Below are positions 1,970 to 44,100 of a stretch of 51,219 bases of DNA, one piece after another. Origin of the DNA: a virus; IMG/VR virus record IMGVR_UViG_3300019871_000003, positions 1 through 51,219 of that record; one strand, given 5' to 3'. The stretch's first letter is position 1, and every line of letters starts with the position of its first letter. The notes beneath the pieces are model-generated. The model did no database searches and had not been told where the DNA came from. It worked only from the letters and a program-made list of their open reading frames with translations. The translations under genes and the position numbers were made by a program.

Positions 1970-2647
1970 ATGGTAAGTGAAGCTAAAAATATTGATAATA
2001 TGGCTTTCATGGCTAAATATCCGGATGGGTTTTTTGATCTCGTTTTAGATGATCCACCCTATGGCGGGTCAATAATGGCTAAGAATAAATTTCAGCGTCA
2101 TAAGACCAAAGCAACATCATACAGGAATAAATCAATACCTAACCCTGAATACTACGACGAATTGTATCGGGTTAGTAAAGAGCAAATAATTTGGGGATGC
2201 CAATATCAAATGTCCTTTTTAAAGCCACATGGATCATTTATAGTTTGGGATAAAAAAGCAGACCCGGACTTGCATAATATGTCCAGCTGTGATATTGCAT
2301 GGTATTCAAAGCGTAAGCAGATTAAAACATTTAACGGCCATTGGTGCGGTGCTGTTAAGTTTGAAAATGAACCGACAATACATATACATCAAAAGCCTGT
2401 AGGTCTTTATGTATGGCTTTTAAATAACTATGCCGAGCCTGGAATGAAAATATTTGATCCACATATGGGAAGCGGAAGCAGTAGAATAGCTGCTTATGAT
2501 TTGGGGTTTGATTATTATGGTTGTGAACTCGACCCAATTAACTTTCAAAACCAACAGGATAGATTTAATAGGCATACAGCACAGCAAAAGTTATTCGCGC
2601 CCGAAACTGTTAAACAAAATTTTATACAAACTTCAATTCTTGACTAA
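1970..2647 (+). CDS. DNA methyltransferase (adenine-N6 or cytosine-N4, DPPY type)
   Basis: 225 residues. Motif IV D-P-P-Y is at 28-31 and the S-adenosylmethionine motif F-D-P-H-M-G-S-G-S comes late (around 160), the order of beta-class amino-methyltransferases. The H-Q-K-P-V block before it is also typical. It would methylate an exocyclic amino group of A or C in viral DNA, probably against host restriction. No restriction enzyme lies beside it, so it appears to be an orphan. Its stop overlaps the next methyltransferase start by one base (TAATG). Confidence 0.9.
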   Translation: MVSEAKNIDNMAFMAKYPDGFFDLVLDDPPYGGSIMAKNKFQRHKTKATSYRNKSIPNPEYYDELYRVSKEQIIWGCQYQMSFLKPHGSFIVWDKKADPDLHNMSSCDIAWYSKRKQIKTFNGHWCGAVKFENEPTIHIHQKPVGLYVWLLNNYAEPGMKIFDPHMGSGSSRIAAYDLGFDYYGCELDPINFQNQQDRFNRHTAQQKLFAPETVKQNFIQTSILD

Positions 2648-3468
2648 TGATAGACGATATAGCCATAAGCGGTCAAAGCAAAGTTAATAAGCGCGAAATA
2701 GATCATAACGCTTATATCCCGCATCTTTTTAATGACCATTTCCAAAACTATAAACCATATAACATTCCAAAGGCTCAACTGATCATTGCAGATATACCTT
2801 ATAATATTGGTAAAAACGCATACGGTTCAAATCCAAGTTGGTATATTGATGGGGACAATAAAAACGGTGAAAGTAAACTGGCGGGTAAAGAGTTCTTTGA
2901 TACGGATAAGGATTTTAGAATTACAGAGTTTCTTCACTTCTGTTCAACCATGTTGATTAAAGAGCCAAAGGAAAGTGGTAAGGCACCATGTATGATAGTA
3001 TTCTGCGCTTTTGAGCAGCAATTTGAGCTTATTGAAAAAGCTAAAAAGTATGGCCTCAATAATTACATCAACCTGGTTTTTAAAAAGAATTTCTCTGCCC
3101 AGGTATTAAAAGCAAACATGCGCATTGTTGGGAATTGTGAGTATACAATTTTGCTTTACCGGGATAAGTTGCCAAAGTTTAACAATCGTGGCAAAATGAT
3201 CTTTAATTGCTTTGATTGGGCAAGAGATACGGCGGTAGAAAAAATACACCCTACGCAGAAACCATTAAAAGTATTGGAACAACTGATCGATGTTTTTACG
3301 GACCCCGGTGACGTTGTTATTGATCCTGTTGCTGGAAGTGGATCTACATTATTAGCCGCCATTCTTTCAGGGAGAAAAGCCTATGGGTTTGAGATTAAAA
3401 AAGATTTCTTCAAACTGGCCAATGAGAAAATGCTATCTAAATATCAACGTAAATTATTCGTGTCATGA
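2647..3468 (+). CDS. DNA methyltransferase (beta class, DIPY motif)
   Basis: 273 residues. The catalytic motif is D-I-P-Y (49-52) rather than D-P-P-Y, followed by N-I-G-K-N-A-Y. Late in the protein come H-P-T-Q-K-P and D-P-V-A-G-S-G-S-T (around 225), the SAM-binding loop. I recall a family of Bacteroidota phage methyltransferases with this DIPY signature, so it is probably active. It is coupled to the preceding methyltransferase by TAATG and overlaps the next gene by ATGA. Confidence 0.9.
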   Translation: MIDDIAISGQSKVNKREIDHNAYIPHLFNDHFQNYKPYNIPKAQLIIADIPYNIGKNAYGSNPSWYIDGDNKNGESKLAGKEFFDTDKDFRITEFLHFCSTMLIKEPKESGKAPCMIVFCAFEQQFELIEKAKKYGLNNYINLVFKKNFSAQVLKANMRIVGNCEYTILLYRDKLPKFNNRGKMIFNCFDWARDTAVEKIHPTQKPLKVLEQLIDVFTDPGDVVIDPVAGSGSTLLAAILSGRKAYGFEIKKDFFKLANEKMLSKYQRKLFVS

Positions 3469-43221: not shown

Positions 43222-43480
43222 TAAAAACTAAAGAGCGTTCTGCTTTTTTTGTATCAAATTTTTTACAAACAATCCTATTTTAATACATAGTTAAGTGTTA
43301 CAGGCACTTATGAGACTAATAATGTTATACAAAGTATTTTTATTGTATTATAACTTACATTTATTAATTATGCATTAATTAATGAGTAACATTATCGTTA
43401 ATACATCGTAAAAATATTAACCTTGTTTTAAAAAGCATACCAATAAAATGAAACCAATTTAGATCGCCTTTTTACTTACC
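43222..43480. other. AT-rich non-coding stretch
   Basis: No gene seen. AT-rich, with an imperfect inverted repeat (GTTATACAA at 43324 facing GTATTATAAC near 43345) that shares the GTTATACAA half-site of the RHH operator at 8316, and a TTAATT-ATGCAT-TAATTAA near-palindrome around 43363-43381. It could hold a second RHH operator or an unwinding element. Nothing else can be supported. Confidence 0.4.
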
Positions 43481-43484
43481 TTTG
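43477..43484 (+). promoter_or_regulatory. -7 box upstream of the structured RNA
   Basis: TACCTTTG matches TAnnTTTG exactly. A transcript from here would start near 43491, just before the structured region at 43510. No clear -33 TTG lies at the usual distance, so the promoter is only probable. Confidence 0.5.
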
Positions 43485-43509
43485 AAGGGTAAAAAATATT
43501 GTACACCGA

Positions 43510-43655
43510 GTGCTGCAGCTCCAAATTACGAAAAATAAAAATCCGCAGCACTGCACAGCAGTACGCCAGCAAATGGCGTAGTTGGTATTGTTTGTGCTGC
43601 GGTAGGGCTTCGTAACCCTGGAGTTGACCATCAGTCCACTACGTCATTTTTTTTT
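43510..43655 (+). ncRNA. Strongly structured leader or small RNA before the RadC-like gene
   Basis: Perfect helices are visible: CCGCAGCAC (43543-43551) with GTGCTGCGG (43594-43602); TACGCCA (43562-43568) with TGGCGTA (43574-43580); AGGG (43604-43607) with CCCT (43616-43619). AGCTCC (43517-43522) can pair with GGAGTT (43620-43625), closing the whole fold and covering GGAG and the TTG start. An alternative helix, GTGCTGC (43510-43516) with GCAGCAC (43545-43551), excludes the first one. CGTAGT-GG (43577-43585) can pair with CCACTACG (43636-43643) just before nine T. Two exclusive folds, plus a U run, suggest a switch/attenuator or a stand-alone RNA. A 'radC RNA' family upstream of radC-like genes has been described elsewhere; I cannot tell whether this is related. 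Confidence 0.55.
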
Positions 43656-44100
43656 ACGCAAGACGTTGAAGCATTCTCAGGTAAAGGTTACCTATAACCC
43701 TAAAATCTTATCACCGCCGATCTGTTCATCATCGGAAACCTACCGTTTTTTAAATAAAATATGGGATAAGGGACTTATTAACCTACAGGAACAAGTTGTA
43801 TTTTTATTTTTGAACGGAAATAACCAGGTGATCACATGGCGCTGTATCAATACCGGAACTGATAATCAATCTCTATTCGATTTAAAATTAGCTTTATGTA
43901 TCGCTCTTAACTGCGCAGCCAGTAAAATGATTATTTCGCACAATCATCCATCGGGGCCGCTTTATCCCTCAAGAGACGATATAAATATTACTAAACGAAT
44001 GAAAAGCGCGGGCAATTTAATTGACATACCTGTGGTGGACCATATAATAGTAAACCGGGCTAATTACTTTTCATTTTTGGATAACGATTTGATGGATTAG
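43624..44100 (+). CDS. RadC-like JAB/MPN-domain protein
   Basis: 158 residues from TTG 43624, or 144 from TTG 43666; no ATG fits. The later start lies after the T run of the structured RNA and leaves the family start V-K-V-T-Y-N-P-K intact. The JAMM metal site is complete: Glu near 56, H-N-H-P-S-G (106-111), Asp near 118. RadC-family JAB proteins of this size are frequent on mobile elements; the old DNA-repair label is doubtful and an anti-restriction or mobile-element role is suspected. It converges on the integrase gene, overlapping by four bases. Confidence 0.8.
   Translation: MTISPLRHFFLRKTLKHSQVKVTYNPKILSPPICSSSETYRFLNKIWDKGLINLQEQVVFLFLNGNNQVITWRCINTGTDNQSLFDLKLALCIALNCAASKMIISHNHPSGPLYPSRDDINITKRMKSAGNLIDIPVVDHIIVNRANYFSFLDNDLMD

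Follow-up and report, generated by a model that had tools for sequence, protein, structure and literature searches.

The RNA described here comes closest, by mechanism, to terminator/antiterminator riboswitches and attenuators, with which it shares two exclusive folds, one of them a hairpin plus T run before a gene. It departs from that class in re-pairing over its whole length rather than within one expression platform, and no known aptamer, T-box or leader peptide was found in it. Control of phage RNA by alternative pairing is also familiar from the c4 antisense RNA (RF01695) and the cI immunity RNA of phage P4, although here we found neither an Rfam match nor a separate antisense target. 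A functional parallel, for which no sequence relation is expected, is IsrK of the Salmonella prophage Gifsy-1, which exists both as a short terminated RNA and as a read-through mRNA, with alternative structures at the locus, and which acts through orf45/anrP/antQ (PMC4825925). The radC RNA motif, listed for Proteobacteria (RF01754; PMC2864571), is like our RNA structured, filed as cis-regulatory and associated with radC genes, but the RNA reported here also occurs without RadC, lying upstream of it in four of seven records. 6S-Flavo RNA (RF01685) is similarly a structured Bacteroidota RNA of broadly similar size, with a different fold and no match at E ≤ 10. Little is known about the regulatory RNAs of Bacteroidota phages, and Rfam holds no family for the present one.

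Identification of a structured RNA and its homologs

The window analyzed here is the whole 51.2-kb stretch of DNA formed by positions 1-51,219 of IMG/VR virus record IMGVR_UViG_3300019871_000003. The host is likely a member of the Bacteroidota, to judge from two proteins: the terminase has distant relatives in Flavobacterium, Nonlabens and Bacteroides phages, and the RadC-like protein has them on Bacteroidota plasmids. An earlier note on this DNA had described hairpins of 9, 7 and 4 bp, a closing helix, a competing 7-bp helix and a final pairing ahead of the RadC-like gene, with a -7 box just upstream; each of these pairings could be located in the sequence, and the box lies at 43477-43484. 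The features of the locus, in window coordinates, are:

43477-43484, + strand: -7 promoter box TACCTTTG, matching the Bacteroidota consensus TAnnTTTG
43490-43655, + strand: structured RNA, putative transcript of about 165 nt, conserved in seven viral records (MAFFT alignments A5/A6)
43501-43504, + strand: X, 5' GTAC, partner of GTAC 43561-43564 (part of D) in fold 2, from folding
43510-43516, + strand: A arm GTGCTGC, pairing with B in fold 2 (the early fold); A:B in all seven, arms covary
43517-43522, + strand: P2 5' arm AGCTCC, partner 43620-43625 in fold 1 (alignment columns 23-27/133-137)
43526-43532, + strand: P3 5' arm TTACGAA, partner 43609-43615 in fold 1, from covariation
43543-43551, + strand: B arm CCGCAGCAC, used in A:B (fold 2) and B:C (fold 1)
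43562-43567, + strand: D arm TACGCC, partner of E in fold 1, always paired
43573-43581, + strand: E arm ATGGCGTAG, used in D:E (fold 1) and in the E:F terminator stem (fold 2)
43594-43602, + strand: C arm GTGCTGCGG, partner of B in fold 1
43604-43619, + strand: P5 hairpin AGGG-loop-CCCT (43604-43607/43616-43619), tip of the terminator hairpin in fold 2
43620-43625, + strand: P2 3' arm GGAGTT, fold 1
43639-43655, + strand: F arm CTACGTCAT (43639-43647) and T run, base of the 75-nt terminator-like hairpin 43573-43647
43666-44100, + strand: RadC-like JAB-domain gene with TTG start (Pfam RadC, E 2e-33)

The arms combine into the 9-bp stem CCGCAGCAC/GTGCTGCGG (43543-43551/43594-43602), the closing helix AGCTCC/GGAGTT (43517-43522/43620-43625), the competing 7-bp helix GTGCTGC/GCAGCAC (43510-43516/43545-43551) and a last pairing, ATGGCGTAG/CTACGTCAT (43573-43581/43639-43647), set against the T run; a 7-bp apical stem, TACGCCA/TGGCGTA, is also present. 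This structure exceeds chance: positions 43501-43655 fold at -60.6 kcal/mol, compared with -45.5 ± 4 for dinucleotide shuffles (z -3.8), and none of 200 shuffles was as low. The same RNA is found in six other viral records (L014, L015, L120, L123, L124 and L127), with z scores of -3.0 to -5.3 against shuffles.

The homologs were reached by different routes. L014 and L015 came from a scan of viral contigs with a RadC alignment, and in both a similar RNA lies immediately before RadC. L120 was picked up by a DNA pattern drawn solely from the RNA (TGGCGT, 45-75 nt, ACGTCAT, T run); there the RNA again directly precedes a RadC-like gene. Most matches of that first pattern scan were discarded as chance, the rest of the RNA being absent. 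A looser RNA pattern, with zero matches among the unrelated loci compared, added L123, L124 and L127, so that the comparative set holds seven sequences in all, three of them close to each other. A covariance model built from these (R1) recovers each of the seven at E 6e-23 or better, as it must by construction with training sequences, and places one P2 pair a column off, which leaves the pair counts of both folds unaffected. R1 also detects a decayed second copy at L124 33-196, 1.3 kb upstream of the intact one (E 3e-11), which was absent from its training set; this copy keeps the 5' half and near-promoter region and has lost E, the 3' arm of P3 and the T run. Weak R1 matches occur in G028, W04, G040 and G032.

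Rfam 15 placed no family over the RNA in the window at the gathering score, and at permissive E-values nothing fell over it in any of the seven records except a chance mir-15 match far under the threshold (E 3.8) in the window. The earlier note had proposed a covariance search that included the radC RNA family. The RNA is not a member of it: with a criterion of more than 40 bits, the RF01754 model matched none of the seven records at E ≤ 10. No match was returned by blastn with the RNA against phage and plasmid collections, and scans with single window proteins (RadC, integrase, terminase and a 590-aa structural-region protein) revealed no close phage. A scan of cellular genome contigs returned only two Firmicutes RadC loci. 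Neither the RadC-like genes of Bacteroidota plasmids nor about 75 other viral RadC loci have such an RNA upstream, and RadC by itself is thus no predictor of the RNA. Open reading frames antisense to the RNA are dissimilar between L015 and L123, and L124 has none of at least 55 aa there.

Two mutually exclusive folds with comparative support

Fold 1 comprises the nested helices P2, P3, B:C and D:E. It is the minimum-energy structure in five of the seven RNAs (window, L014, L120, L123 and L127) and lies within 0.3 kcal/mol of the minimum in L124; L015 prefers fold 2. The balance between folds is not uniform, since six sequences favour fold 1, with margins of 2-11 kcal/mol, and L015 favours fold 2 with a margin of 7. 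On a structure-blind MAFFT alignment, 95.2% of the cells of P2, P3 and D:E are paired and eight pairs have changed on both sides; the covariation score of these three helices is 0.521, against 0.203 ± 0.037 in shuffled alignments (0 of 500 shuffles reach it), and sliding the partner arm as a control lowers pairing to 27-40%. P2 is paired in 100% of cells with two-sided change in three of five pairs, and P3 shows two-sided change in five of seven, its arms reading UUACGAA/UUCGUAA in the window, UUACCAC/GUGGUAA in L120, AGUCGAA/UUCGACU in L123 and GGUCGAA/UUCGACC in L124. D:E is always paired, with one-sided changes only. In a blind scan of all column pairs, P2, E:F and D:E ranked first, second and third; 300 column shuffles gave a best helix equal to P2 four times and never a pair of long covarying helices such as E:F and D:E. 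In nearly all seven RNAs, the A-rich stretch at 43485-43500 can pair with the T run at 43648-43655 (helix columns 18-23/191-196), which might act in fold 1 as a clamp joining the RNA ends.

Fold 2 consists of A:B and a hairpin of about 75 nt, made of the E:F stem with P5 at its tip, that directly abuts the T run. It is this hairpin (43573-43647, comprising E:F, an extension and P5), not fold 1, that RNAalifold returns as the consensus of the structure-blind alignment, with 26 pairs, 12 of which carry compensatory changes. By count, 92% of its cells are paired and 13 pairs show double changes, none of 500 shuffles reaching it on any measure; P5 has two-sided change in two of its four pairs. The hairpin measures 73-76 nt with the T run directly 3' in all seven RNAs, so that one of the two folds is predicted to end in an intrinsic terminator. 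With the E:F core held fixed, what remains of the hairpin exceeds shuffled interiors in stability in six of the seven (P 0.006-0.064); for the window P is 0.30. Forcing only E:F is enough for the best structure to include A:B and P5 as well in six of seven, and X:D (GUAC:GUAC) arises in constrained and partial-transcript folds of most homologs, being weak or absent in L015.

The A:B helix, whose arms were chosen by hand, is present in all seven; taken alone it stands at P 0.0025 in the window and 0.02-0.29 in the other six, not above chance in L014, L015 and L124. More direct support comes from the close relatives L123 and L127, between which B changes together with A and C stays constant; in other comparisons B and C change together. 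Because the arms were aligned by hand, the counts for B:C and A:B are partly so by construction, and only this between-phage swap is informative.

The two folds exclude one another, since B cannot fully pair with A and C together, nor E with D and F together, and P5 and P3 are incompatible because the P5 loop is the 3' arm of P3. With compensatory changes above controls in both, the comparison supports two complete, mutually exclusive folds that have each been kept by evolution. A lack of compensatory change in homologs had been named by the earlier note as what would refute it, and the outcome of this test favours the RNA and both competing folds. Equilibrium folding of growing transcripts, under a nearest-neighbour energy model that leaves pseudoknots out, gave A:B as the first helix in all seven, followed by B:C and then by P3 and P2. 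Conserved unpaired bases of the kind expected in a ligand pocket are few.

Putative promoter and downstream genes

The motif TAnnTTTG is the -7 consensus of sigma-ABfr, and Flavobacterium johnsoniae is another species for which it has been confirmed (PMC7366714). In six of the seven records (window, L015, L120, L123, L124 and L127) the 330 bp before the next gene contain it exactly once, at the 5' end of the RNA; L014 has no perfect box. Since this sole box sits at the RNA 5' end, the downstream gene is in these six without another recognizable promoter. No other perfect box precedes the RadC-like genes, whose starts follow the T run at a distance of about 6-12 nt, and for these reasons they most likely need read-through.

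The earlier note had started the RadC-like gene at the TTG in GGAGTTG (43624) and had the closing helix cover that start. The conserved protein instead begins at TTG 43666, exactly where homology to L014 (59% identity) and L015 (51%) sets in, TTG being the first in-frame start in both; the T run is therefore outside the gene, ahead of its start, and the helix at 43620-43625 leaves that start unmasked. The start codon is TTG in the window (43666), L014 (3001) and L015 (3001), and ATG in L120.

A RadC-like gene follows the RNA in four of the seven (window, L014, L015 and L120). The other three instead have an ORF of 65-67 aa unrelated to RadC (L123 7953-8156, L124 1570-1767, L127 6846-7049), with the motif MV(A/D)FE.KERKIIIT..GD; the L123 copy matched nothing in Pfam or PHROG. 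Among the proteins of L123 are a MuB-like transposition protein and a Mu F-like head protein, and L124 and L127 have the same gene order around the RNA as L123. The RNA is thus found in two unrelated phage types, integrase-type and Mu-like, which suggests a portable control module. Of the reading given in the earlier note, an attenuator or switch on the one hand and an independent small RNA on the other, the pair of options still stands; a role specific to RadC does not, because in three of the seven, all Mu-like phages, what follows the RNA is a small ORF unrelated to RadC.

Possible modes of action

We lean toward a bistable terminator/antiterminator leader RNA that yields either a short terminated RNA or read-through. 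From what was computed (conservation, both folds and their exclusion, promoter box and T run) we infer transcription, termination, read-through and a default state along these lines. Transcription would start at the host-type promoter, just upstream of 43490, and the first half of the RNA would fold as A:B, together with X:D. Emergence of C and the 3' arms of P3 and P2 would then allow re-pairing into fold 1 (P2, P3, B:C and D:E), which occupies E and leaves F single, so that RNA polymerase would read into the downstream gene. Should fold 1 fail to form, or be disrupted again, the E:F hairpin of about 75 nt would form before the T run and terminate transcription, releasing an RNA of about 165 nt. 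A ligand, a protein, an RNA or the state of the phage might act as the trigger.

Against this leader count the uneven balance between the folds, D:E with its one-sided changes, the scarcity of conserved unpaired bases, a comparative set of only seven RNAs and the hand alignment of some arms. A further point against it is that the downstream genes differ, as would equally be expected of a stand-alone phage small RNA of about 165 nt that acts in trans, with the next gene incidental and A:B a folding intermediate. Such an RNA would have, as read from the sequence, its own perfect -7 box (six of seven) and T-run terminator (seven of seven), and it would fit both the 65-75 nt or so that separate T run and ORF in the Mu-like homologs and the decayed L124 copy, which on its own strand is not directly followed by a long ORF. 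This main rival nevertheless seems to us the less likely of the two, as it leaves unexplained why two complete folds are kept and why RadC starts about 6-12 nt past the T run in the absence of a further -7 box.

More doubtful still is a compact pseudoknotted RNA (an aptamer, ribozyme or protein-binding element) where E would stretch from the B:C loop to the 3' tail, so that E:F forms alongside P2, P3 and B:C. E:F and B:C are both comparatively supported and topologically compatible, and the linkers look long enough; yet P3 and P5 cannot coexist, since the 3' arm of P3 fills the P5 loop, A:B and D:E are left without a role, and conserved unpaired bases are few. The nearby integrase gene in the window, L014, L015 and L120 could also bring to mind chance or DNA-level inverted repeats, such as an attachment site or protein sites. 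That explanation is very improbable: promoter and T run are strand-specific, the compensatory changes include G-U pairs, and the Mu-like homologs have a transposition protein instead of an integrase.

The leader RNA that we favour is probably, on this comparative evidence, a new kind of phage RNA switch. It is a tentative but real prospect, somewhat short of an even expectation, that it represents an RNA class of temperate Bacteroidota phages not described before, in which whole-length re-pairing would sense a cellular or phage signal and decide between a short terminated RNA and expression of a phage gene, and which would have moved between unrelated phages and become coupled to different genes. 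With comparative traces of both competing folds, the RNA lends itself well to studying how RNA switching is coupled to transcription, and the sequence pattern and model R1 should make it easier to locate in sequenced lysogens and to put to the test.

Several smaller observations accompany these genomes. Two adjoining N6/N4 DNA methyltransferase genes lie at 1970-3468 of the window. Further downstream of the RNA in the Mu-like phages, a 103-aa ORF matches phrog_17154 (function not assigned), and the Mu F-like head protein of L123 (10950-12119) carries a C-terminal PBECR2 nuclease-like domain.
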